Part shown: positions 1-11,011 of the stretch, one piece after another | Position numbering within the stretch: position 1 is the first letter of the stretch | Layout of the letters: every line of letters begins with the position of its first letter | NCBI GenBank assembly: GCA_027603945.1 | Contig: JADIIU010000229.1 | Location: 1-11,011 of the forward strand | Source of the DNA: Terramyces sp. JEL0728 | Taxonomy: Eukaryota > Chytridiomycota > Chytridiomycetes > Rhizophydiales > Terramycetaceae | Direction of reading: 5' to 3' | DNA: 11,011 nt | The notes under the pieces: model-generated | Told to the model about the DNA's origin: nothing | The model's input: the letters and a program-made list of their open reading frames with translations, nothing else | Database searches by the model: none | Position numbers and translations under genes: made by a program

Positions 1-75
1 AAACTTTAGTATTTCATCAACAGTAATAAACCATTCACTCGTAATATAATTTAAACGGCTTGTCCACTCCAACAT
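1..75 (-). CDS. Possible 5' end of a gene running off the left edge
   Basis: I do not recognise this protein. On the minus strand an ATG at 75-73 opens 25 codons without a stop up to the window edge, beginning MLEWTSRLNY and ending VDEILKF. The residue mix is balanced and protein-like. A TATATA element lies at 157-162, about 80 nt upstream of the ATG, matching the spacing of the TATA-like element before the next gene on this strand. The same frame stays open upstream to about position 165, so an earlier start or a preceding exon is possible. It lies downstream of, and in the same direction as, the hevein gene that ends at 294. Only the left neighbouring sequence could show what it encodes, and the call could be chance. 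Confidence 0.3.
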   Translation of the reverse strand, partial: MLEWTSRLNYITSEWFITVDEILKF

Positions 76-156
76 CCAACATTTGACGTTTGATTGGTCG
101 AGAGCAATTTCAGTAATAAATACAACTACCTCAAAAATGCATGAAATCAATTCGGG

Positions 157-162
157 TATATA
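157..162 (-). promoter_or_regulatory. TATA-like element for the left-edge ORF
   Basis: TATATA lies about 80 nt upstream of the ATG at 75 on the minus strand. The element is common by chance in AT-rich DNA, so support comes only from its position. Confidence 0.25.
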
Positions 163-293
163 CTAAAACATTCCTTTTATCAAGGATTTTAGACTCAGTT
201 AAAATAATCATTATCATTAAAGAAAAAAAAGTATTACCACATAAATATCCAAGTGTCGCGTAAAGTATAACCTTCCAAGAATAAATCACTTTA

Positions 294-1315
294 TTAATAG
301 CAATTTGAAGTTGGAACAAAAGCATAATTTGCCAATCCATTTGCACCATTATTGTTTGGTCCAAAAAGGGAAGCAAAAGAAGTGGTATCAACTTCAAAGT
401 GAGTAGACACACTTTGGTATGGTGGTGGTGAAGCTCCACATCCGTCTGAAATGGTAACGAATACTGTTGCAAAACTGGTGCTCAATTTAACACATTGCCC
501 ACAATTGCTGCTTCCCCATGATAATCCACCCATAGCTGTAGCGCCTCTGTTAGTACCAATGAAGGGGTTGAGGTTTGGATATTTTTGGCCAAAGAAACTA
601 GAACAAGCCAAGCTACTTGTTGGGGTGGTGGAATAGTAATTGTGCTGGGTAATGGCAGCTTGTTGGGTACCACCCGTGCCTCCAGTACCGCCAGTAGTAC
701 CAGTACAAGGTCCAGATTTACAACCAGCTCCACAATAGGTATCTCCAGTTCCACAATCTAATATTATATAAATCTTACATCCATATTGAGACATGCACAA
801 GCCTGCAGCACAACCGCCAGAAGTACATGGCCCAGATTTACAGCCAGCACCACAATAGGCATCTCCAGTTCCACAATCTAATGTAAACTAGTATCATACA
901 CCCATATTGAGACATGCACAAACCTGCAGCACAACCGCTTGAAGTACATGGCCCAGATTGACAGCCAGCTCCACAATAGGCATCACTAGTACCGCAATCT
1001 AATGTAAACTAGTATCATACATCCATATTGAGACAAACACGATCCGCTAGGGCATAAAGTAATTTTGGAAGTAGTTTTGAAAGTAGTGTTTCGAGCCACT
1101 ACTGGGTCAGAAACTGGTGCCGTGTTAGCAGGGTTCTGCTTGAATGCCCTTTCAATCAAGAGAGAACCAATGCTTCCTACGATCAATCCCATGGCGATAT
1201 AACCAAACTTCTTTGCAAGGTTAAATCTTTTGGATGGGAGAGCAGGAGATTCACCATCTTCTGAATTATTGATGCGTACATGTTTGACACTCCAGACTCC
1301 ACGTTCAGATTCCAT
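294..1315 (-). CDS. Membrane-anchored triple hevein (CBM18) protein with double-psi barrel
   Basis: Predicted cell-surface or secreted chitin-binding protein of 318 aa built from four exons (1315-1021, 998-900, 877-779, 757-294). Residues 1-36 are polar, 38-56 form a hydrophobic segment (GYIAMGLIVGSIG) preceded by basic residues, which suggests a type II signal anchor and not a cleaved signal peptide. Three hevein-like modules follow at about 87-115, 119-148 and 152-181, each carrying CxSQYGYCGTxDxYCGAGC and QSGPC or KSGPC. A Gly/Thr linker (about 183-195) leads to a C-terminal domain of about 120 residues with SNCGQCVKL and TISDGCG, resembling the cerato-platanin/expansin (RlpA-like) double-psi beta-barrel. 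Each hevein module is interrupted inside QYG|YCG by a 21-22 nt intron. Splicing is inferred from restoration of this motif. Catalysis is not implied: such barrels are often non-enzymatic. Exons 2 and 3 arose by tandem duplication. Confidence 0.85.
758..778 (-). other. Ultrashort spliceosomal intron, 21 nt, phase 1
   Basis: The intron starts GTAAGA and ends ATTAG. Removal restores SQYGYCGTGDTYCG in the third hevein module. The length is a multiple of three and there is no in-frame stop, so retention would insert seven residues (CKIYIIL in place of Y, in effect) and would not truncate the protein. Confidence 0.85.
878..899 (-). other. Ultrashort spliceosomal intron, 22 nt, phase 1
   Basis: All 22 bases are identical to the intron at 999-1020. 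Removal restores SQYGYCGTGDAYCG in the second hevein module. It is part of the 121-bp duplicated exon-intron unit. Confidence 0.9.
999..1020 (-). other. Ultrashort spliceosomal intron, 22 nt, phase 1
   Basis: The intron starts GTATGA and ends CATTAG on the minus strand. Removing it joins CAATATGGAT to ATTGCGGT and restores the hevein core SQYGYCGTSDAYCG. Unspliced, the frame shifts and soon hits a stop. It contains TACTAG, a possible branch-point-like motif. Confidence 0.9.
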
Positions 1316-1391
1316 GTTTTGTTAGTCCAAAGCGAAATGAAGGTCTTGGTTTTTTAAAGAAGGATTACGCAGTCAATGGGGCTAGGTCAAG

Positions 1392-1397
1392 TATATA
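1392..1397 (-). promoter_or_regulatory. TATA-like element upstream of the hevein gene
   Basis: ATTTATATAC on the minus strand lies about 80 nt before the ATG at 1315. No other promoter element is obvious in 1316-1568. Confidence 0.4.
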
Positions 1398-1568
1398 AAT
1401 GGAAATTCGCCAAACACCCATGATTGTCTTTAAGCCGAATCGGGTTACAGAGAATATGTCTCCTCGTTTACGGTGTTCTAATTAGCAAATTGATACAAGA
1501 CGTGTGTAATTATGCTACCCATCTTTCCTGTATAATAATATTAGCAAATGATGGAGGCAGAGATAGCT

Positions 1569-1782
1569 CTAAAAGAACGGTTGCTTTTTGACATCAGGGA
1601 CCTTCCATTTATAATTAAATAGAGCAACCTTTGCGAAACCAGCCCCAGTTTTGGACAACCCCTTCAATATATATTTCTTCTGTTTAAATTTATCTGATGT
1701 TGGTATTTTTGTTTTCGTGTTATAAGGATCGGGAGTTACGCGAAATAAACTGATGAAAGTGGTGAACTCACCATTCCAACAT
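1569..1782 (-). CDS. Small unrecognised basic protein, one proposed 22-nt intron
   Basis: I do not recognise this protein. An open frame at 1569-1790 has no internal ATG. An ATG at 1782-1780 in another frame can be joined to it by removing a proposed intron at 1771-1750 (GTGAGT at the donor, ATCAG at the acceptor, 22 nt, phase 2). The result is 63 aa starting MLECLFRVTPDPYN and ending KWKVPDVKKQPFF. It is lysine-rich, with KFKQKKYILKGLSKTG near residues 24-39 and no clear membrane segment. Such size and charge would fit a small mitochondrial or ribosome-associated protein, but this is only a guess. The donor is a canonical eukaryotic sequence, yet phase 2 differs from the seven better supported introns. 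It starts 155 bp from the divergent gene at 1938. An unspliced chance ORF remains possible. Confidence 0.35.
1750..1771 (-). other. Candidate 22-nt intron
   Basis: The donor is GTGAGT and the acceptor ATCAG. It is supported by giving an ATG to an otherwise start-less ORF; no homology supports it. Confidence 0.35.
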
Positions 1783-1937
1783 GATCTCAATGCCTTAATA
1801 AATTAAACGCGATTTGTCTGGTCGAGCAACTCCAAATCAAAATGAGCTAATCAATTCTTACGTGATTGTTACTTGCACACCAATCACAAGATTGTCGCGT
1901 TGGCAACGGGTTCCGCAGCATTGAGGATACCTTGAAG

Positions 1938-2307
1938 ATGATCTGGCACTCTTTTAAAATAACCAAAGGGTCGAGTTTCTTTCCAGATACAGCTAGTAAA
2001 ACTGAGCATTTGCAGTCGATTTTGTCTTACAAGTGAAAAACATGTGGAATGGATTGAAATGGTTAGTGATTTACGTATAGATAGAGAAAAGAGAGTAAAT
2101 CGTTGGAATGATGCAACAATTCAACCAAATAGAGCAGCACTTGCATTTCACAAGACCTTGTGCTTGATATATCGAATGGCAGGTGGGGCAGAAATGCAAG
2201 ATGAAGAGTGTTGGGATGACGATGAATTAGGACCAGTAAATACTGCTGAATTGAAACAAAGGTTTAATATTAATGATTCTGCTGATACATTGTATCCAGT
2301 TTCTTGA
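1938..2307 (+). CDS. Small unrecognised helical protein, proposed 19-nt intron
   Basis: I do not recognise this protein. Two overlapping frames look coding: one through about 1866-2033 (HSFKITKGSSFFPDTASKTEHL) and one from about 2034 to the stop at 2305-2307. Removing 2015-2033 (GTCGAT...TACAAG, 19 nt) joins them as SKTEHLHEKHVEWIEMVS, giving 116 aa from the ATG at 1938. The middle is helical and charged (SDLRIDREKRVNRWND, about 37-52), followed by AALAFHKTLCLIYRMAGG and an acidic stretch (QDEECWDDDELG). The start is uncertain, because the upstream frame is open to 1866 without an ATG, so an earlier exon may exist. An AATAAA lies at 2314-2319, just after the stop. Alternatives are a 34-nt intron at 2033-2066 or a one-base frameshift at AAGTGAAA. 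Confidence 0.4.
2015..2033 (+). other. Candidate 19-nt intron, atypical donor
   Basis: GTCGAT...TACAAG, phase 2. It joins two coding-looking frames without a stop. The donor lacks the GTA start of the well supported introns, so confidence is limited. Confidence 0.35.
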
Positions 2308-2311
2308 GTTA

Positions 2312-2449
2312 TTAATAAATGTACAAGTTCTTTTCTTGGAGAATGGCTGGTGGTAATCGAATAGGGTCATGTTTGATTGCATTATTCTCTAATTCGCCAA
2401 TATAATCTTGAATCATTTGTCTGGTGTTGTCACATCTCGAATTCAACAT
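2312..2449 (-). CDS. Tiny unrecognised ORF or last exon of a minus-strand gene
   Basis: I do not recognise this protein. The minus strand is open from an ATG at 2449-2447 to a TAA at 2314-2312, 45 aa, with a convincing soluble composition: NTRQMIQDYIGELENNAIKH followed by PIRLPPAILQEKNLYIY. This reads as the helical C-terminus of a larger protein. A short upstream minus-strand stretch (around 2470-2530, reading WNQIKTL and AVADL) could belong to it if removed segments of 24-25 nt at 2478-2501 and 2440-2464 were introns, giving the join ...VADLCDNTRQ; this is speculative. Its stop is 4 nt from the stop of the convergent plus-strand gene. A short chance ORF is possible. Confidence 0.35.
   Translation of the reverse strand: MLNSRCDNTRQMIQDYIGELENNAIKHDPIRLPPAILQEKNLYIY
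2314..2319 (+). terminator. Polyadenylation signal AATAAA
   Basis: AATAAA starts 7 nt after the stop codon of the plus-strand gene and overlaps the stop codon region of the minus-strand ORF, which shows how tightly the convergent 3' ends are packed. Confidence 0.45.
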
Positions 2450-2622
2450 TCACTGATCACAGGTCCGCTACTGCTCCAAATCAATCAAGAATGTAACCGA
2501 GAGTCTTAATTTGGTTCCATTTGCGCAACTACTTGAAACCCTAAAGAATCATTTTTTGTAAGGTTTAACTGGATTTGGAACAAACATTTGCATAAAAGCC
2601 AAAATCATGAATTCAATCCCTA

Positions 2623-3384
2623 ATGAATATCACAGCTACTCTAGAACAACTGAACGATTTTGGCGACTACCTTGAAGATAACTGGGGGATAATTATACCA
2701 GTAATCGAAACACGGCCAATTGCTTATAGAGTATTCTATCGAGTTGTGCAGCTAATGCCTTCATATCCAGACACAGTCTATGGAATGGCGAATGCTGTGC
2801 TATGCTACCTTACTTTTGTGAATATGCTGTTTTGCTTATGGAATAGACACTTGCTAAGACACAACAAGGAATCACCAACAACAAAAACAATCAGAATGGT
2901 TTTTTGGTATACAGAGCTTGCACTTTACACTTTGTTTTATGGCTCTGAGCTGTACCTGACTCAAGTGATTTACAAGGAACCTGGAACTGTAATTCATCAT
3001 TTGATTGCCTTTTTGATTTTCTATGAACTGCTGGACATCAAAAAAGTTACCCTGCTGACCTTGTTTCCTTTATTTGTTCATGAATGGTATTTCCTGACTT
3101 ACTCGCTGGAATGGGTTGTGCTGTACAATCTTGCAATGCTGGTTTTGGGGTATTTTGGATCGGTAAAAGAATATGGAAAGAGACTTGTGTGGTACTGCAT
3201 AGTTATACAGTATGTAAACTATTACTTTGAATGCGCAACAAAAGGCAACGAAAGAATGTCTGTTTGTGTGGTAATCGACGGGTATCCGCACCTTGGAGCT
3301 ACTATTTCTCTTGGGCTTTTTAGTGGAATTACTACCTATCTGTATTATTCGCTGACTAGGGAATCAAAAATAAAAACAGAGTGA
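2623..3384 (+). CDS. Polytopic membrane protein, TLC-like topology, function unknown
   Basis: Unspliced ORF of 253 aa with about six to seven hydrophobic segments (approx. residues 53-74, 90-110, 124-141, 143-160, 161-178, 185-203, 224-244). A histidine pair (TVIHHLIAFLIFYELLD, about 122-138) in a membrane segment, after a polar loop, and the overall layout recall TLC-domain (TRAM/LAG1/CLN8) proteins, but the match is weak and I make no enzyme claim. The N-terminus is soluble with no signal peptide. The ATG at 2623 lies in a short leader. A second ATG at 2607 is out of frame and overlaps the start, so it could act as an upstream ORF. The last 13 codons plus the stop lie in the first copy of a 40-bp tandem repeat, whose second copy carries an AATAAA that may serve as polyadenylation signal. 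The neighbour on the right is the convergent MHYT gene. Confidence 0.7.
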   Translation: MNITATLEQLNDFGDYLEDNWGIIIPVIETRPIAYRVFYRVVQLMPSYPDTVYGMANAVLCYLTFVNMLFCLWNRHLLRHNKESPTTKTIRMVFWYTELALYTLFYGSELYLTQVIYKEPGTVIHHLIAFLIFYELLDIKKVTLLTLFPLFVHEWYFLTYSLEWVVLYNLAMLVLGYFGSVKEYGKRLVWYCIVIQYVNYYFECATKGNERMSVCVVIDGYPHLGATISLGLFSGITTYLYYSLTRESKIKTE

Positions 3385-3426
3385 TTATTCGCTGACTAGG
3401 GAATCAAAAATAAAAACAGAGTGATT
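3344..3426. repeat. Perfect 40-bp tandem duplication across a stop codon
   Basis: The unit beginning ATTATTCGCTGACTAGGG is present twice with period 40 (3344-3383 and 3384-3423, match running on to 3426). Copy one encodes the C-terminal tail of the membrane protein; copy two is in the 3' UTR. The identity suggests a recent slippage or replication event, or an assembly duplication. Both copies contain AATAAA. Confidence 0.95.
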
Positions 3427-3505
3427 TATCCATTATTTTGTAGCTAAACGCTGCATTTCCGCTTGAATAACATTGTCCTTATTCAGCAAATTTTGAATGA
3501 TTCTT

Positions 3506-4828
3506 TTATTTCAGGAATCGATGGACATAGTTGATTATTCCCAATTCAAAACTAAATGCCAAATGTGCCGACAATAATTCATTGTCAAACCCTGAAATCT
3601 CTGCGTAAGGACTGTCAACATTGTATCCCTCAATATATTCTGGTATTAGTCCGGCAGAAGCAGTATAATGCATTGCACATACAGCAAGTCCCATAACCAG
3701 TGAAGCAGCAAACACAGCGTGTTTGCTACGCAGAAAGAATAGAATCCATAATGCGACTGTAGCCACCACTGAGGCAATAACGATAGAAACTGATAAATGC
3801 ATTGGGTTCATCGTCATTTTTACATTTGCAACTCTAACTGCTGCCATTCCACAATAGTGCATTCCAGCTACACCTAATCCAGTAAAGATACCGCCCAGTA
3901 CAAACACAATTCTGTCTCGGATGCACAAGGAAAAAAAGGTAAATTCGCGGAGGTAGTTTAGAGCTGCACTTTCCGTTTTCATTTTCTGCAACAGTTTTGT
4001 CAATGCATTTGATTTCTTTGTTGATTTGGGCTGGATTCTTGCTTCACTCGGTTTCGGAGATAGCAAGGCGTTCTTTGATAAATTGGATTCATTAAATCTA
4101 TGATCACGAGAGTTGTTGATTGATTCATTGACTTTGATTTCGCGTATAACTGATTCGTCATCAGCTTCTGATATAGCAATAGGAGGTCTTGGTTCATCAC
4201 TTGAAGATTCTTTTCCTTTTGAATAGTTTGCAAGTGTGTTTCTAAACAAACCAAATGCATATGCAGAAGTACACAGCCCAAAATAGACTGAGAATATACC
4301 GACAAATAGTGATACCGAAGTGTATAGTACATTTAGATTTAATGGAGCGAAATGATTGTTGTTAAAGTAACCTTGACTGACAATTGCATCCACTTGATCG
4401 CTCTTGTCATCAGGAATAATAAAGAAAGAGAGTGCGTGGATCCCAATAAAGTGCATACCCCATATTCCACATGCACCAAGAGCGACTGCAGCGATAAACA
4501 TATTGAAAAGTGTCAAGTAAGAGTCAGTCATGCCTTCAACAAATGTTCTACGCTCAAGTCGTATTCCAGGATCCGTGATACTGCATGACGACTGGACGAC
4601 TCCTTCTGATTTTATGCTCTTTGCGCTTGATTTCTTTCTATCCAGCTTTCTTTGTACAAGCAACTTTAACAAATGCGAAATCACTTCGATTGACGTGAAT
4701 GCTCCAAACACTGCAGCCCAGAATGATACGAATATGGTCAGCCAATCCCAACTAACTACGACCAACATTCGCTGGAAAGATAAAAAGGTTTGAACCCTAT
4801 AAGCGATTATTTGATTATCACCTCCCAT
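3506..4828 (-). CDS. MHYT-domain integral membrane protein
   Basis: 440-aa membrane protein with the MHYT signature in three places: GIWGMHFIGIH (about 121-131), AGMHYCGMAA (321-330) and CAMHYTASAG (384-393), spread over six or seven membrane segments. In bacteria MHYT is a sensor module proposed to bind copper through its Met and His residues and to sense diatomic gases, often fused to GGDEF/EAL; here no such output domain follows. The second and third motifs are separated from the first by a long charged, Ser/Lys-rich cytosolic-type loop (about 203-295), as expected for stand-alone fungal MHYT proteins. The start may instead be the second Met (residue 21, MLVVVSWDWL), since the first 20 residues are atypical. 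After the stop, a +1 frame continues with 25 coding-like codons to a TAA at 3435-3433, so the C-terminus is uncertain. Ligand and role are inference. Confidence 0.85.
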   Translation of the reverse strand: MGGDNQIIAYRVQTFLSFQRMLVVVSWDWLTIFVSFWAAVFGAFTSIEVISHLLKLLVQRKLDRKKSSAKSIKSEGVVQSSCSITDPGIRLERRTFVEGMTDSYLTLFNMFIAAVALGACGIWGMHFIGIHALSFFIIPDDKSDQVDAIVSQGYFNNNHFAPLNLNVLYTSVSLFVGIFSVYFGLCTSAYAFGLFRNTLANYSKGKESSSDEPRPPIAISEADDESVIREIKVNESINNSRDHRFNESNLSKNALLSPKPSEARIQPKSTKKSNALTKLLQKMKTESAALNYLREFTFFSLCIRDRIVFVLGGIFTGLGVAGMHYCGMAAVRVANVKMTMNPMHLSVSIVIASVVATVALWILFFLRSKHAVFAASLVMGLAVCAMHYTASAGLIPEYIEGYNVDSPYAEISGFDNELLSAHLAFSFELGIINYVHRFLK

Positions 4829-5356
4829 TATTATGTCATTGTTAATAAACCCTAGCCCTGTAGCTCAATCAGTCCACAAGTTTATTCAAAGAAAGATTAC
4901 TAATAATTCGTGTTACTATGGTCTCATTTGGATATTCATCACGTACTCTTGCCAATGCACGCACACAAAAGACTCAAAGAGTGTGCGATAAAGAAATGTT
5001 CACCTATCGCGAATAATGCCTACATGAGACGTCATTTATTCATGGTTTCAACAATCTCTTTTGGATATGCTTTTATAGAACAGTCCAGTGGCACAGGCTT
5101 GGCGTCCACCAAACTGAAATCCAGATGTCAAAGATTTGTGAAAGCTTAAATTGGATGAAATTTTTCAACAATTGCAAACTAGGTAGAGCCCAACAAGTTC
5201 AATTAATGCCAGAATGAGTTTCAGGTTACCTAATCAGCCAGAAACTGAAAAAGTCGTTCAACTTGTTCAAAAACGGCCACTGACCGCAAAAGTGCCAAAT
5301 GAAGGTAGACAAAGAGAGATTTATATATAAATACAATTGCTGCGGACAAATACTGC
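4829..5356. other. Intergenic region between divergent MHYT and permease genes
   Basis: No supported gene is seen. The region presumably holds both promoters; a strong TATA element lies at its right end. Small open frames occur (ATG at 4918, 32 codons, starting MVSFGYSSRTLANART; ATG at 5214, starting MSFRLPNQPETEKVV, ending at the TATA element), and parts look protein-like, but I could not join them with a convincing short intron. They could be exons of a tiny gene or chance. A tRNA A-box-like string near 4860 has no matching 3' half. Confidence 0.4.
5322..5331 (+). promoter_or_regulatory. TATA box of the Git1-like permease gene
   Basis: TATATATAAA lies 26-35 nt before the ATG at 5357. This implies a very short 5' leader if transcription starts about 30 nt downstream of TATA. 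Confidence 0.6.
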
Positions 5357-6775
5357 ATGTCCAACTACTCAAAGACTTTTATTGCAGTCATCTGCGGTGC
5401 AGCTTTACTGTCAGATGGATACGTCAACAACTCGATTTCAGTAGTTGTCAGTTTATTGAAAAAACAATATCCAGAAGCAGCTGCCAGCAACAAGGAATTG
5501 TTTTCTAGTATTGTACCATTCACCTACCTGGGCACTATTGTTGGTATGCTGACATTTGGTTGGATTGCAGATAAATATGGAAGGAAAGCTGGAATGATTT
5601 CTGCCAACTTGTTGTTGATTTTCTTTACTCTGTGTTGTGCTGCCTCTTTTGAAATTGGAGGGACTGCAGATTCGCTGTTTTGGATGTTGCTTGTATTCAG
5701 GACATTCTTAGGCATAGGGATTGGTGCTGAATATCCTACTGGGTCTGTTGCTGCTGCTGAATCCACCGGAGAACAAGACAGTGGTGGCCATTCTTTGTTT
5801 GTGTTGGTCACTGACTTGGCAATTAATATTGGATTCATCCTGTCTCAATTCATTGCATTCTTACTTGCGCTCGTATTTCAATCTTCCCTGGATGGATTGC
5901 CAAACTATGATGCAATTTGGCGAACATTGATTGCTCTTGGTGTAGTAATCCCAATCGTCATCTTTTTCTATAGAGTTCAGTTGGCAGAACCTAAAGCTTA
6001 TGCGGAAAACTGTCTCAAGATAAAAGTGCCTGTTAGTTTGGTATTGAAAAAGTACTGGTTTAGGCTTGTCGGTTGTGGTTTGATCTGGATGGTTTACAAT
6101 CTAGTTGCCTTCCCGTTTGGAAATTTCATTTCGATTATTACTGACAACATTTACGGTTACGGGAGCAACTCTCTTTCTACTAATTACTGGTGGGACACAA
6201 TGACTTTATTATTTTATATTCCTGGATCACTGGCAAGTGCGTTTTTTGTAAAGCGAATTGGACCTAAAAAGACTTTAATCTTGGGATTATTCTTGCAGGC
6301 AGTAACTGCGCTGGTTCTATATGTTGGATGGAATGCTATTCAACCAAGTGTTGGCTGGTTCTCTGTTGTTTATGGCTGCTTCCTAGCCTTTGGCGAATTG
6401 GGCCCTGGTGGTTGCATAGGATTGATTGCTGCTAATTCTTGTCCTTCAGCTGTTCGTGGCCAGTTCTATGGCATTGCTGCTGCTATAGGCAAGGTAGGTG
6501 CGTTTATTGGAACAAAATACTTTTTCGTTTTACAAGACGCGTTTGGAAGCCCAACTTCTGTAGACTACAACAGAGGGCCGTTTATCGTTGCTTGTGCTTT
6601 GAATATCTTTGCCATTCTACTGGTCTTTATATTTGTAGGAATGATTGGTGAAGATGCTGTAAACCGCGACAATGCAGAATTTAGAGATTATTTGATTGAC
6701 AACGGCTACGATTCCTCTGTATTTGGAGTTGAAGCAAGCCCTAAAGCTATAGAAAGTGATAAAATCACTAAATAA
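5357..6775 (+). CDS. MFS permease, Git1/phosphate-ester transporter type
   Basis: Plasma-membrane transporter of 472 aa with 12 predicted helices and no introns. Visible MFS features are the early ALLSDGYVNN segment (about 16-25, the position occupied by the substrate-site region in phosphate:H+ symporter relatives), loop 2-3 motif GWIADKYGRKAGM (68-80), GIGIGAEYPTGSVAAAE (119-135), and in the second half GELGPGGCIGLIAANS with RGQFYGIAAAIGKVGAFIG (about 349-389). These match the fungal Git1 group, which takes up glycerophosphoinositol, glycerophosphocholine or related phosphodiesters by proton symport, and the wider PHS family. Length is slightly below Git1 of yeast. The substrate cannot be fixed from the sequence; inorganic phosphate is an alternative. 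The ATG at 5357 directly follows the TATA region and starts a short cytosolic N-terminus. Confidence 0.85.
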   Translation: MSNYSKTFIAVICGAALLSDGYVNNSISVVVSLLKKQYPEAAASNKELFSSIVPFTYLGTIVGMLTFGWIADKYGRKAGMISANLLLIFFTLCCAASFEIGGTADSLFWMLLVFRTFLGIGIGAEYPTGSVAAAESTGEQDSGGHSLFVLVTDLAINIGFILSQFIAFLLALVFQSSLDGLPNYDAIWRTLIALGVVIPIVIFFYRVQLAEPKAYAENCLKIKVPVSLVLKKYWFRLVGCGLIWMVYNLVAFPFGNFISIITDNIYGYGSNSLSTNYWWDTMTLLFYIPGSLASAFFVKRIGPKKTLILGLFLQAVTALVLYVGWNAIQPSVGWFSVVYGCFLAFGELGPGGCIGLIAANSCPSAVRGQFYGIAAAIGKVGAFIGTKYFFVLQDAFGSPTSVDYNRGPFIVACALNIFAILLVFIFVGMIGEDAVNRDNAEFRDYLIDNGYDSSVFGVEASPKAIESDKITK

Positions 6776-6876
6776 TATATTTCACGATATTTACTCATGA
6801 ATATAAATTAGAATCTTGTCTTTTTTGACAGCACCACAAAGAATGGTAACAAATAATATTCAATTTATATAATAAT

Positions 6877-8171
6877 TCATATTTTTACATTCCATGCCCC
6901 CTTTGAGGCCGTCATCCTCACACTCAACTGCAGTATTGTGCCAATGAAAAAGGAACCGCCGCAAACCAAAATCGCAGGAGTAAAGTCAATCGTATTGTCC
7001 GCTCTCGTAAAGATTTGAATCATATATGCCCCAGCAATCGGTCCAAATAAACTACCAAACGAATTTCCAAACATGACTGAAGCAGTTTTAGTGCTGATAT
7101 TCTCCTTTCCAAACAAACTTGCTGTCGCAGCTGGGATCACAGATATATATCCCCCAACACCAATACCATATAGTATAGAAAATAGAATGATTGAAGCAAG
7201 GTCGTGTGCTACCACCCATATTGCAAATATCGATACCAAGGCTGTGGTTAAACAAGCAACAAGCATATTCATGCAGCCAAGCCAATCAGCAGCCAAACCT
7301 AACCCGAATCGACCAATTGAACTACCACCGTTCATTAATCCCAAAACCAATGCTCCTTCAGCGGCAGTTAGTCCGTTCGAAACTGCGTAAACAGTGATGA
7401 AAAAGAAGGGAATAAAGTATCCAAATGAATTAAACACACTGGCAATTGCCATTCCGATAAACTTGTGGTCTGCCAAAAATTGTGCCATTACCCCGTCATT
7501 CTTTTTGCTTGGACGTATTCTTTGCTTTAGGAAGCAAGCACAAACAAATGAAATTGAACATCCTCCAATTGCCAGGTATCTTAACGACCTCTGCCAGTCA
7601 AAAGTAACCAGCAGAGCGTTGGTCAACGGACCAAGCAACAACCCGCCTACACCGGCGCCTATTTCAACATGCAGTTACCTGATGCTGCAAGACCAGTTGC
7701 AAACCCTCTACGTCTTTGGAACCAGTGCGACAATACTGAAATAGCTGGGTTGTACGATAAAGCTGAGCCTAATCCAAATAAAACACCTTGGGCCATCAAT
7801 AACTGTAAATATGAAGTGCTGTAGGAAGCAATGTAAAGGGATGCAAACATAATCACCGATCCAGCAGCAGACACTTTGGCATATCCCAATTTATCTGCTA
7901 ATTGGCCAGCAATAACTCCAAACAAAGTCAATCCAGATGCAGCAGAGGCTCCAATCAAAGATACTTCAATGGTAGATACATTTTGAAAAAACGGTAGTGT
8001 TTTATAGTACTGTTGAAACACGCCAAATGTAGTTATTTGACCTATAGATATAAAGTGGATGGCGAATGAGAGGAATATTTGAAAGTATCCGTATCCACCT
8101 TCTGGAAATTCAATTACCGCAATCATATCCTTGTCCGGGTCGTTTTTGTCCCCCATATCAACTTTGTTCAT
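6877..8171 (-). CDS. MFS monocarboxylate-porter-like transporter, one 20-nt intron
   Basis: Membrane transporter of 424 aa from two exons (8171-7679 and 7658-6877) with 12 predicted helices. The start of helix 1 carries FPEGGYGYFQIF, the equivalent of the (D/E)G(G/S)(W/F)(G/A)W signature of the monocarboxylate porter family (TC 2.A.1.13), as in fungal Mch and animal MCT proteins. Loop 2-3 reads GQLADKLGYAKV and the loop before helix 5 WFQRRRGFATGLAASGAGVGG. The last string exists only after removing the intron at 7678-7659. The ATG at 8171 is chosen because it is the first in-frame ATG and lies about 45 nt below a TATA-like element. Yeast Mch proteins do not all move monocarboxylates (Mch5 takes up riboflavin), so the substrate is open. 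It follows the RNase T2 gene on the same strand with a 93-bp gap. Confidence 0.88.
7659..7678 (-). other. Ultrashort spliceosomal intron, 20 nt, phase 1
   Basis: It starts GTAACT and ends AAATAG. Removal joins GCATCAG to GCGCCGGT and restores LAASGAGVGGLLLGPL, a conserved MFS stretch. Unspliced, the protein stops after ASGNCMLK and loses eight helices. Confidence 0.92.
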
Positions 8172-8213
8172 GATGGAAAATGCAATGACGTTTGACACCA
8201 ACCTCGACGGAAA

Positions 8214-8220
8214 ATATAAA
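8214..8220 (-). promoter_or_regulatory. TATA-like element of the monocarboxylate-porter-like gene
   Basis: TTTATAT on the minus strand, about 43 nt upstream of the ATG at 8171, inside the 93-bp gap to the RNase T2 gene. Confidence 0.35.
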
Positions 8221-8264
8221 GACACTCGAGTGTGAAATAGTTACAATTCGAGGGTATTTTATTG

Positions 8265-8810
8265 TTAAAAGTTGCATACAGAAGAAAACTCTGAAATATC
8301 AGCCAATCTCCAAACAAGATCGCTTCCAGCACAAGCGTACAGCTCAATAGAGTCTGTGGCAGAGACTGTTTGATAGACGCCAGTGAATTGCGACGCCATT
8401 TGTTGAATAGTCAAGCCTTGTGAACGCATACCTGCCATCTTTTGTAGCGGGCCGGCAGATAGAGAACACACTTGGTTGAAAAAAGTAGCTGGATCAGTCC
8501 CACCACATACTCCGTGTTTCTGCCATTCGCCAGTTTGGAATGACAGATCATTGTAACAGCCAGCCAGCGGTACTGGTGCATTGCTATCGCCTCCTGCACA
8601 TTGCGAGTTTCCAAACGAACCAGTTTCTGGCCATAAACCGTGGACCATAGGAGTTGGCTGACGATAATTGCCACTGCCTCTTCCTGCTTCCAGTGCGAGA
8701 ACCCCACAGTACGGGGCACCTTGACAATCGATACCGCGTTTATAGAGAGACAGAGCAGAAACAGCAGACACCAAGAACAACATTCTGGCGAATAGAAAAT
8801 GTTTTTGCAT
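8265..8810 (-). CDS. Secreted ribonuclease T2, short form
   Basis: Predicted extracellular or vacuolar RNase T2 of 181 aa, cutting single-stranded RNA through a 2',3'-cyclic phosphate. The N-terminus is a signal peptide (basic start, then LFARMLFLVSAVSALS, cleavage near residue 20-22). Both catalytic segments are present: CAS I as MVHGLWPETG (55-64, His57) and CAS II as GEWQKHGVC (94-102, Glu95, Lys98, His99). The usual first His of CAS II (HEW) is Gly here, but that position is not the catalytic base or acid. Cysteines at 29, 35, 71, 85, 102, 115, 160 and 179 suggest four disulfides. The protein is short for the family (commonly above 220 aa), with a compact C-terminus ending SSVCNF. It is not spliced. 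It lies between DNAJC9 and the MFS gene on the same strand. Confidence 0.88.
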   Translation of the reverse strand: MQKHFLFARMLFLVSAVSALSLYKRGIDCQGAPYCGVLALEAGRGSGNYRQPTPMVHGLWPETGSFGNSQCAGGDSNAPVPLAGCYNDLSFQTGEWQKHGVCGGTDPATFFNQVCSLSAGPLQKMAGMRSQGLTIQQMASQFTGVYQTVSATDSIELYACAGSDLVWRLADISEFSSVCNF

Positions 8811-9377
8811 TTATAGATTTTTACCACGTTTATTCATACCCGCGCCATGCAATGACCCACATGAACGGTCAGTGGGAAACCGAGTAAACATCCTTGGCCA
8901 AGATAATTATCCCTCAGACACTCTTGCAAATAAAATTCAATCGAGCTGGATCATTAGAGATGCCGTAATTGTAGCAGATTTTCCCGTTTGTTTTTTACTT
9001 TTTCCAAAACAGTCGCACTCCTTAACTAGCCGAAAATAGCATCGCGGGTTAACAGTAAATGTAAAATATTGTTCAAATAGCTGAATCGACCTCGCTAGAG
9101 TTACTACTGCATTAAAACGCCAGGATATTTTGTTTCCGATACTTTTTCACTTACTAGAGACCAATTATTACACCTACTGTCACACACTGTATCTTATGAT
9201 GGACACGTTTCTTTCAAAGGGACTTGAATAAAAGGAAATTTTCTTTTCCAGTTTAGCCTTCATTTTCCAGTGTTGGTCAGAATAGATTTGGAAATTAAGT
9301 TTAGCAACTGGCCAAGTTACTGGTGCATCAACAAGCCGTGTATTCCCTCAAGAGGGCCAAACATATTTCATCATTTA
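8811..9377. other. Gap with two unexplained open stretches
   Basis: No gene can be supported. It should contain the RNase T2 promoter and the DNAJC9 3' end. Two stretches look coding. On the plus strand about 8884-9039 reads VNILGQDNYPSDTLANKIQ and ends at TAG. On the minus strand 9347-9180 reads NTRLVDAPVTWPVAKL and KMKAKLEKKISFYSSPFERN and is preceded by a stop, before which ATGATGAAATATG occurs. I could not join either to a start with a convincing short intron. They may be decayed genes or chance. Confidence 0.3.
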
Positions 9378-10116
9378 TTATTCGACATCTGCCTTTCTTC
9401 TTTTTGGTTTACTTTCTTCAAACTCTTCTTTGTGCTTTTCCTCTTTACAATACTTTTCTTCAATATTGGAAATCAATGCAGACAAACGAGATTCATTTCT
9501 CTTTTGAATCTCCATCTTTAACGCCAACTCATTCTCCTTTTCATTCTCGGTCTGCACTTGTTTCTTTTCTTTTTCTAGTCTTGTTTTTCTCTTTTTCAAT
9601 TCTTTTTGATTGATTTTTGGGAACTGTCTGTAGACTGATAATTCACCTTCACTTAGAATAACGTACCTTGGTCGATTGCTAGCTGACAGATTTCCTTGTA
9701 CCTGTCGAGATCGTCATAATTAGAAAGTGGAATGTGGTCAATCATATCCAGTAAATTTCCTTTTGTTTTAACATAAGCCAGAAACACATCGTTCCTTTCC
9801 TGCTCGGAATATCTATAAACCTTTTCATATTCCGCTGAAATATTAACTCTTAGTTACCAATATCACTTTCATTAATCTTTTTAAAGTAAAAATCATATTC
9901 CTTCTCGTCAATCTCTTTTGTCCTGTCGTAAACTTGTCTTTTCTTGGGATCAATCAAGCAAGAGTAAGCCAGGTTTATATCTTGGATTTTCTCATTGTCA
10001 ACATCCTTGTTCTTGTCTGGATGATATAATAGAGCCAATTTCTTGTACTTTTGTTTGATTTCCGACGTAGTTGCTGTTTCTGGTAATTCCAAGATCTCGT
10101 ACAGATTCTTTTTCAT
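9378..10116 (-). CDS. DNAJC9-type J-domain histone co-chaperone
   Basis: Nuclear J-domain protein of 231 aa from three exons (10116-9858, 9834-9667, 9646-9378). The J domain (about 3-72) has LYEILELPETATTSEI, the HPD tripeptide at 32-34 that activates Hsp70, and AYSCLIDPKKRQVYDR. It is followed by the region typical of DNAJC9: YFKKINESDIAEYEKVYRYS, FLAYVKTKGNLLDMIDHIPL, and QLAIDQGELSVYRQFPKI, then a Lys/Glu-rich coiled coil (about 155-225) with ISNIEEKYCKEEK, close to the animal DNAJC9 tail. In animals DNAJC9 binds histones H3-H4 and recruits Hsp70 to remodel them; the same role is inferred. Length is near the animal protein (about 260). Both introns are supported because the joins restore SDIAEYEK and IDQGELS. 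Upstream lie a TATA box and a CCAAT repeat array. Confidence 0.92.
9647..9666 (-). other. Ultrashort spliceosomal intron, 20 nt, phase 1
   Basis: It starts GTACGT and ends GTGAAG, with CTAAG as a possible branch region. Removal restores AIDQGELSVY, matching the DNAJC9 family. Confidence 0.92.
9835..9857 (-). other. Ultrashort spliceosomal intron, 23 nt, phase 1
   Basis: It starts GTAACT and ends TTTCAG, with ACTAAG inside. Removal joins INESDI to AEYEKVY as in DNAJC9. Unspliced, the protein stops after SDIGN. Confidence 0.92.
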
Positions 10117-10133
10117 TTGTCAAACTTTTTATC

Positions 10134-10139
10134 TTTATA
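10134..10139 (-). promoter_or_regulatory. TATA box of the DNAJC9 gene
   Basis: TATAAA on the minus strand lies about 18 nt before the ATG at 10116 and abuts the CCAAT repeat array. Confidence 0.45.
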
Positions 10140-10226
10140 CCAATGCTTGTCTGAACCAATGTTGTCTGAACCAATGCTGTCTGAACCAATGTTGTCTGAA
10201 CCAATGTTGTCTGAACCAATGCTTAT
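10140..10226. repeat. Six-copy 15-bp repeat, each with a CCAAT box
   Basis: CCAATG begins at 10140, 10156, 10171, 10186, 10201 and 10216. The core unit is CCAATGTTGTCTGAA; the first copy is 16 bp and the last diverges after CCAATGCTTATCTG. The array is 24-110 bp upstream of the DNAJC9 start, on which strand it reads as inverted CCAAT (ATTGG), an orientation that also functions for the NF-Y/HAP complex. It could be a multi-site promoter element or a simple minisatellite. Confidence 0.9.
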
Positions 10227-10322
10227 CTGCTTGTAATGTCGCAAGATTAACATATCCAAGAGAAAACTTTTATCTCATCATATAATCAAGCGATCTGTAA
10301 TATAAAAGGAATGTATTAGGTA

Positions 10323-10638
10323 TTAATCAAAGTCAGAATCCTCTTGTTCCTGTTCTTCTCGCGGTTTATGATTCTTGTTTACTTCCTCACACACATCCAA
10401 CCAGTCAGAATACACATCTACAGGTTCAGTCAACGCTAAATCAGTAATATTTACATGTAATTGTCGTTTGCCAATCTACTGAACATGCTGAGCATTTCAA
10501 CGACGCTATTTTTTGCTGTTGGTTGAACTTTACCGTTACTGTATCTTCGTGGGAACAAAAGAAGCATGGAAATGATTTGTCAAGAACTGTCTTTAGTTTT
10601 TTCTGTGGTTTTCTAGTTGTGGATTTGCGTTTTCCCAT
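10323..10638 (-). CDS. ELOF1: Transcription elongation factor ELOF1/Elf1
   Basis: Small nuclear zinc-ribbon protein of 98 aa from two exons (10638-10455 and 10435-10323). It binds elongating RNA polymerase II and helps passage through nucleosomes and transcription-coupled repair. The basic N-terminal tail is MGKRKSTTRKPQKKLK. The zinc ribbon is PCFFCSH (Cys25, Cys28) and LKCSACSVDWQT (Cys49, Cys52). The family hallmark EPVDVYSDWLDVCEE (65-79) is encoded by exon 2, so the 19-nt intron must be removed to obtain a full protein; unspliced it ends TITCKYY. An acidic tail EEQEQEDSDFD follows, as in other fungal Elf1 proteins. The gene is head to tail with DNAJC9 downstream, with the CCAAT array between them. 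Confidence 0.95.
10436..10454 (-). other. Ultrashort spliceosomal intron, 19 nt, phase 1
   Basis: It starts GTAAAT and ends GATTTAG, with TACTGA as a possible branch region. Removal joins QTTIT to SLTEPVDVYSDW, the conserved ELOF1 C-terminal half. This is the shortest well supported intron in the window. Confidence 0.95.
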
Positions 10639-11011
10639 TCAAAAAATTAAAATTCTGTTTCATGAATGAAAAATTAATGGATGAATTACTGTGAGTGCGA
10701 CCCAATACTGATCGACATGGATGCAAACCTTTGTGATTACAACATAGTCCGTTCCTGCTTGAGGATGGTATACTAGTTAACCTGTGCATTCCAATCGAAT
10801 AGACTGGTTGTAATTATCAATTTAGAGCAGCTCAGCAACAAGATCAAGTTTAGCAAAGTCGAACTAACCAGCATTATTATTGCACAAGGAATCACTTGAC
10901 ATCGAATTGGTTTGAAACAGCTTTTCTGTGCCGGCTTTTTTAATTTAAAAGCACAAAGCAAAATAGTCAACTGACTGCATTTGACTATTATCAAAGCTAA
11001 TTCTACGCGAA
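10639..11011. other. Right-edge region without a supported gene
   Basis: It contains the ELOF1 promoter. On the plus strand an ATG at 10662 opens MNEKLMDELL and meets GTGAGT, a canonical donor, at the end of that frame. Further on, 10777-10899 is open and reads INLEQLSNKIKFSKVELT. This could be a divergent gene that continues beyond the window, but I could not find a consistent intron chain. A hydrophobic minus-strand ORF over the same bases looks like its shadow. Confidence 0.25.

Follow-up and report, generated by a model that had tools for sequence, protein, structure and literature searches.

In the nuclear genome of Terramyces sp. JEL0728, ordinary U2-type introns close to the smallest size that a spliceosome accepts are almost certainly the normal intron class, with lengths of 19–22 nucleotides (nt) and a mode at 20 nt, as far as sequence analysis can tell. 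The stretch from which this is argued is 11,011 nt long (contig JADIIU010000229.1, here C229, positions 1 to 11,011; hereafter the window) and belongs to a genome of 15,016,339 bases in 231 contigs. An initial annotation of the window had proposed seven spliceosomal introns of 19–23 nt in four unrelated genes, and had taken such introns to be the normal class; the sharp peak at 19–22 nt, the fact that longer introns, scanned to 300 nt, are not in excess, a branch motif and the presence of several U2-type components bear out this proposal. The genome shows a narrow dominant length peak below about 30 nt, as do the ultrashort-intron genomes of the Stentor, nucleomorph, and mikrocytid types, and the removal of such introns is supported by homology in the unrelated genes for ELOF1, an MFS porter, a hevein-type protein, DNAJC9, dynamin, U2AF65, a P450, and superoxide dismutase.

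Length Distribution of the Introns

We sampled 215 kb at 22 places of the 15.0-Mb genome (20 pieces of 10 kb each, taken from contigs C1–C20, plus the window and the U2AF65 locus; GC about 39%) with a gene finder relying on codon statistics, which knew only the boundary dinucleotides of introns and was allowed lengths of 12–150 nt without length preference. In this free-length run, 68 of the 151 GT-AG introns placed were 19–21 nt long, versus 0–14 among the 118–148 introns placed for each of eleven decoy boundary pairs. The highest decoy count in this range (14) came from CT-AC, the reverse complement of GT-AG. No GT-AG excess was seen at 22–24 nt (11 vs. 3–11 in decoys), nor above 24 nt and up to 150 nt (66 vs. 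96–131 for the eleven decoy pairs). A second run, with motifs learned from 79 introns of 19–23 nt and lengths of 14–300 nt allowed, placed 126 of 260 GT-AG introns at 19–23 nt, versus 1–10 for five decoy pairs; such motif-based runs are partly circular for motif strength, not for length. The counts for 19, 20, 21, 22, and 23 nt were 30, 64, 17, 11, and 4, respectively, and neither 23 nt alone (4 vs. 0–6 in decoys) nor the lengths above 23 nt and up to 300 nt (129 vs. 189–244 for the five decoy pairs) exceeded the decoys. Because the 22–24 nt and 23 nt bins are not in excess, the statistical class is set at 19–22 nt, mode 20.

When restricted to 17–24 nt at a lenient setting, the gene finder predicted, in 221,853 bases, 157 genes with a minimum of about 100 codons; together they held 249 introns, and 98 of the genes contained at least one. 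The decoy-corrected density is about 0.8–1.0 intron per kb, which suggests a genome total on the order of 10,000 introns, an extrapolation from a small sample of large contigs. An in-frame stop was present in 32 of 34 introns with a length divisible by three and in 125 of the 215 others, but the gene finder sees stop-free introns of the former kind poorly, and these figures allow no conclusion on selection.

Anatomy of the Introns

The anatomy was described from the 79 introns of 19–23 nt found without motifs. Position +3 is an A in 89% of them. The donors, said in the initial annotation to be nearly uniform, are GTA-rich, with about 2.5 bits over positions +3 to +6, but they are not uniform. 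In 65 of the 79 introns, the motif YTNAY is present with its A 4–7 nt from the intron end; 1,000 shuffles of the intron interiors gave 15.0 such introns on average and never more than 26. The fitted branch A falls at position 14–16 in 76 introns and 5–6 nt before the last base in 70. The predicted branch point is a visible, position-fixed signal, which adds to the account given in the initial annotation. By eye, the hevein introns of the window fit this branch pattern: they show TTTAC and ATAAT, in which the A stands 6 nt from the end. The interiors are 76% A+T, and these introns leave no space for a polypyrimidine tract.

GT-AG boundaries and a branch motif that could base-pair with GUAGUA of U2 point to the major (U2-type) class for these introns. 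U12-type introns are marked by an extended donor of the ATCCTT type and a branch motif of the TTCCTTAAC type. We rejected this minor class for the 79 inspected introns, which show mostly GTA(A) donors and a YTNAY branch; the U12 small nuclear RNA (snRNA) was not searched for.

Introns and Genes of the Window

The seven segments proposed as introns (19, 20, 20, 21, 22, 22, and 23 nt) were all found in place, each running from GT to AG on the minus strand, the strand of all the introns and genes in this section unless no strand is given. Six could not be read through according to the initial annotation, and indeed six lengths are not multiples of three; the exception, the 21-nt intron of the hevein gene, keeps the frame and contains no stop. 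Their removal was also said to restore family sequence, and the protein families agree: ELOF1 and hevein matches gain in score, and single MFS_1 and HTH_DNAJC9 matches span the MFS junction and the second DNAJC9 junction, respectively.

The gene for the Elf1-like transcription elongation factor ELOF1 (10323–10638 with its stop codon) carries a predicted intron of 19 nt, GTAAATATTACTGATTTAG, at 10436–10454. The match to the Pfam family Zn_ribbon_Elf1 rises from 58.3 bits (positions 1–61) in the unspliced frame to 95.8 bits (positions 1–79 of 79) in the spliced product of 98 amino acids. The DNAJC9-like gene (9378–10116 with its stop codon; 231 amino acids when spliced) carries two predicted introns, of 23 nt at 9835–9857 (GTAACTAAGAGTTAATATTTCAG) and of 20 nt at 9647–9666 (GTACGTTATTCTAAGTGAAG), both of which were also placed by the gene finder knowing only GT/AG as splice motif. 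The HTH_DNAJC9 match (62.9 bits, residues 93–158 of the spliced protein, from a scan that covered the spliced form only) spans the junction of intron 2, near residue 143. The putative 23-nt intron has its site between the two domains, J and HTH, and the case for it rests on restoration of the frame.

The MFS gene (6877–8171), which encodes a monocarboxylate-porter-like protein of 424 amino acids after splicing, from an ATG at 8171, contains a candidate intron of 20 nt, GTAACTGCATGTTGAAATAG, at 7659–7678. The MFS_1 total is nearly unchanged by its removal (69.5 + 46.1 bits in two open reading frames [ORFs] vs. 116.7 bits spliced), and a single stretch, covering residues 36–316, then crosses the junction. 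The chitin-binding gene with three hevein repeats (294–1315; 318 amino acids spliced) has one candidate intron per repeat: 22 nt at 999–1020 in repeat 1 (GTATGATACTAGTTTACATTAG), the same 22-nt sequence at 878–899 in repeat 2, and 21 nt at 758–778 in repeat 3 (GTAAGATTTATATAATATTAG), this last one lying within the ORF 294–887. Unspliced, Chitin_bind_1 reaches 20 bits in one ORF (cut-off 27.8) and has no match in the other; with all three introns removed it reaches 84 bits in three stretches. The in-frame 21-nt intron could be read through, and its removal is supported because the repeat then matches its two neighbors. Within the 758–1020 region, the introns of repeats 1 and 2 are identical and interrupt the same codon, which suggests that the hevein repeat was duplicated in tandem along with its intron.

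Two further genes of the window consist of one open frame each: an MHYT-domain membrane protein at 3506–4864 and a ribonuclease-T2-like protein at 8265–8810 (21.6 bits, below the cut-off). By eye, we also noticed two tandem repeats, for which no strand is given. At 3344–3423, the final 40 or so bases of the ORF of a multi-pass membrane protein are repeated, stop codon included, and at 10143–10225, between the DNAJC9 and ELOF1 genes, there is a short repeat with a TGTCTGAACCAATG-like unit.

Genes outside the Window

Of ten genes sought outside the window by sequence words, eight yielded models for inspection. Those for ribosomal protein uS5, dynamin, superoxide dismutase, a mitochondrial carrier, and a P450 were compared with families or structures; the other three, by eye a RAE1-like, an ankyrin-repeat, and an AAA-type gene, were left aside. 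The dynamin gene has seven predicted introns of 20–21 nt, five of which were also placed without motifs. A single alignment to a dynamin-1-like chain covers six of its junctions (the whole protein scores 545 bits), with a gap of 3 residues next to one of them; the seventh is in the interval that separates the two domains aligned. The U2AF65 gene (C2:44938–46279) has four predicted introns of 19–20 nt. Three of the four junctions are inside matches to the solved RRM1-RRM2 and UHM domains of U2AF65, and the two printed alignments are ungapped there; the first junction, near the start codon, is outside the homology matches. Single Pfam stretches span the two junctions of the P450 and the one of superoxide dismutase. 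The mitochondrial carrier matches Mito_carr with 211.9 bits; its junction falls beyond the displayed stretch and is hence not counted. The genes for uS5 and eEF1A have no introns.

Lineage of the Genome

Over 458 residues, the eEF1A protein gives a gap-free alignment to the PDB chain 1f60, its best-scoring chain (904.8 bits), which we take to be eEF1A of Saccharomyces cerevisiae; the next kind of chain, 4c0s, presumably mammalian eEF1A, scores 862.8 bits. The protein also carries an insert that we assume to be typical of opisthokonts. With this insert and a sequence closer to yeast than to animals, eEF1A supports assignment of the genome to the fungal lineage (Fungi/Holomycota). The "fungal-type" genome of the initial annotation is thereby upheld by one gene; for ribosomal uS5, the best matches among PDB chains are weakly separated. 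EF-1-alpha-like GTPase genes occur in pairs with similar scores, one pair 15 kb apart on the same contig (C81:5849–7195 and C81:21113–22459) and another on separate contigs (C37:26399–27519 and C56:29085–30205); these genes are interrupted by brief gaps for which short introns could account.

Splicing Machinery

The components to which the initial annotation had drawn attention, U2, SF1, U2AF (as U2AF65), and U5, were all found in the genome. The U2 snRNA scores 140.2 bits (C70:14443–14635) and has GTAGTA in its gene, and the U5 snRNA scores 85.9 bits. Also found were U2AF65, the helix-hairpin domain of SF1, Slu7, and Prp18. The role of Slu7 and Prp18 in yeast depends on the branch-to-AG distance, as the title of Brys and Schwer 1996 also indicates. 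We considered that these two factors might be lost at a branch-to-AG distance of 5–6 nt, and likewise that U2AF65 or SF1 might be lost, and rejected both ideas, all four genes being present; the finding of Slu7 and Prp18 also speaks against a simple form of the view that they are dispensable at this distance. The Prp18 match falls into two pieces that overlap in profile positions and are separated by 14 bases, and the second piece of Slu7 contains two stops; such breaks could be an effect of unspliced short introns.

In RRM1 of U2AF65, RNP1 reads KEHCHVEF, versus KNFAFLEF in the best solved chain, with two histidines where solved chains have phenylalanines, whereas RRM2 keeps its RNP1, GFAFCEY. 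The two replaced phenylalanines are presumably RNA-contacting residues, and their replacement is possibly linked to the missing polypyrimidine tract.

Several candidates for U6 were discarded. Two Rfam candidates fell short of the gathering score of 44 (27.4 and 26.9 bits) and showed no convincing U6 core by eye. The pattern ACAGAGANRATTAGCA gave 4 one-mismatch matches, versus 5 for its reversed control (flanks viewed for 2 of the 4), and CCCCTGCNNAAGGATGA gave 1 exact match (control 0) that has no ACAGAGA in the 140 bases upstream. The loci of the two Rfam candidates, C199:4823–4928 and C111:34941–35045, are nearly identical and seem to belong to a repeated element rather than to be U6 genes.

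Weighing of the Explanations

Several points weigh against a normal class of ultrashort U2-type introns. The gene finder is simple, and at the lenient setting seven decoy pairs reach 33–68 introns versus 249 for GT-AG. Retraining its codon model on GT-AG predictions favors GT-AG somewhat, though not the 20-nt length. The search covered introns of up to 300 nt in coding sequence, and some gene models are incomplete, for example that of Prp18, which matches only profile positions 3–99 of 143. The branch fit began from a hand-set motif and could place the A no nearer to the intron start than position 10 and no nearer to the end than 3 nt. An Rfam search of the genome gave no match to U1 snRNA, a weak negative as the control likewise matched nowhere, and neither an Rfam search nor two pattern searches of the genome located U6 snRNA. 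Finally, the excision of these introns is predicted from sequence.

Among the alternatives, assembly or sequencing insertions that fell by chance in coding sequence can be practically dismissed, as such errors would not prefer GT...AG over decoys, hold a position-fixed branch motif, or peak at 20 nt across contigs. A small size and a narrow length range would also suit elements excised from DNA, such as the internal eliminated sequences of ciliates, or non-spliceosomal RNA introns removed by an endonuclease, as in tRNAs. The GT/AG boundaries with their YTNAY motif speak against both, as do the U2, U5, SF1, U2AF65, Slu7, and Prp18 genes of the genome, and eEF1A is fungal-like rather than ciliate-like if we are right about the species of its best chains; we give these excised elements or introns hardly any credence. 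Ciliate internal eliminated sequences are TA-bounded DNA segments, and we set them aside for the seven protein-restoring segments of the window, which all start with GT and end with AG; decoys bounded by TA were not run genome-wide.

The genome might also be mixed, with a real 20-nt class and a missed second class of introns of ordinary length. Some predicted introns are indeed longer, and the scans spanned lengths up to 150 or 300 nt in the coding sequence of about 215 kb out of 15 Mb. Yet longer GT-AG introns were fewer than those of decoys in both runs (66 vs. 96–131 above 24 nt; 129 vs. 189–244 above 23 nt). These counts oppose a large class of long introns but leave room for a small one, because true short introns leave fewer broken frames, and we consider a mixed genome rather improbable. 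That the sequence stems from another kind of organism, such as a rhizarian or a ciliate, for which introns of this type have been reported before, is countered by the preference of eEF1A for 1f60, in our understanding the yeast protein, over 4c0s, which we believe mammalian, and by its supposedly opisthokont insert. Mikrocytids, which belong to Rhizaria, do have introns of 16–17 nt (PMC10245619), but we judge such an origin very improbable.

Proposed Mechanism

At sequence level, each of these introns holds GTA(A) as donor, YTNAY as branch motif, with its A usually at position 14–16, and an AG 5–6 nt past this A. For splicing of the U2 type at this size, we propose that the donor would pair with U1 and U6, and the branch motif would be recognized by SF1 and then by U2 through the GUAGUA of its snRNA. 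Branching would produce a lariat with a loop of about 14–16 nt and a tail of 5–6 nt, and exon ligation would use the nearest AG. Deletion bias or selection for compactness may have shrunk the introns to a floor, presumably set by the span between donor and branch site, and the conserved branch motif would keep them recognizable at this floor size. More speculatively, the spliceosome could be length-gated, reading donor and branch site as a unit of fixed span, with the polypyrimidine tract gone, U2AF65 retuned, as the two histidines in RNP1 of its RRM1 might reflect, and introns of ordinary length inefficient as substrates; we regard this extension as conceivable but doubtful.

Comparison with Known Ultrashort Introns

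The initial annotation compared these introns with those of chlorarachniophyte nucleomorphs, Paramecium, Stentor, and microsporidia, a list from which dicyemids and mikrocytids (16–17 nt; PMC10245619) were missing. The comparisons made here draw on portions of the papers cited. Introns of Stentor coeruleus and other heterotrichs are 15–16 nt long, with the branch A mostly at the 10th or 11th base and a tail of about 5 nt (PMC9505925), and thus resemble those described here in their narrow length range, GT-AG boundaries, nearly fixed branch A, and short tail. In the same portion, all major-spliceosome snRNAs are reported for Stentor, whereas we did not locate U1 and U6, and no strong branch consensus is reported, whereas the present introns, of 19–22 nt with the branch A at 14–16, show a clear YTNAY (PMC9505925). 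Moreover, 18% of Stentor genes have an intron, versus 98 of 157 predicted genes, at the lenient setting, in the present 15-Mb genome of fungal lineage. Chlorarachniophyte nucleomorphs have introns of 18–21 nt at high density (PMC10245619), nearly the same length range and a similarly high density, but the nucleomorph is the relic nucleus of an endosymbiont, for which the source, in the portion used, reports no branch-point signature and donors that are largely GT(A) (PMC2483917), in contrast to the strong branch motif found here.

The introns of Mikrocytos mackini, a parasite with a reduced spliceosome, are uniformly 16–17 nt long and conserved in sequence (PMC10245619). They share with ours their uniform, tiny size and conserved sequence, but number 224, whereas our sample suggests an order of 10,000, in a genome with Slu7, Prp18, SF1, and U2AF65. 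Introns of Paramecium and dicyemids measure about 20–33 nt, and these organisms, too, have tiny introns as a general class at relatively high density. However, a study of 50 species, in the portion used, reports the short-intron lineages then known (Paramecium, nucleomorph, dicyemids) to be without a branch-point signature, unlike the strong one seen here, and strong signatures to be a tendency of intron-poor lineages (PMC2483917). According to the same portion, introns of the microsporidian Encephalitozoon cuniculi average 35.8 nt, and several yeasts prefer a branch-to-AG distance of 2–8 nt, counted from the end of TACTAAC (PMC2483917). Microsporidia and such yeasts resemble the present genome in their fungal lineage, strong branch motif and, in several yeasts, preferred branch-to-AG distance, but their genomes are intron-poor and their introns longer.

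In the literature that we searched, which did not include key genome papers on Rozella and aphelids, there was no report for Fungi or Holomycota of introns of about 20 nt as the normal class. The predicted introns are U2-type ultrashort introns, of a kind already known and near in size to the smallest on record for any organism, in a lineage for which we found none described. What sets them apart is the combination, in a fungal-lineage genome, of tiny size, a strong, position-fixed branch motif, and a density of nearly one intron per kb. Many such genes would probably be mis-annotated by gene predictors whose minimum intron length is set higher. If length gating were true, it would represent an independent origin of ultrashort introns in opisthokonts, with Slu7, Prp18, SF1, and U2AF65 retained. 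The genome offers a natural system, nearer to yeast than ciliates are, in which to study the minimum size of a spliceosomal intron and what sets its donor-to-branch distance, and to ask what U2AF, Slu7, and Prp18 do in introns too short for a polypyrimidine tract, with only 5–6 nt from branch to AG.

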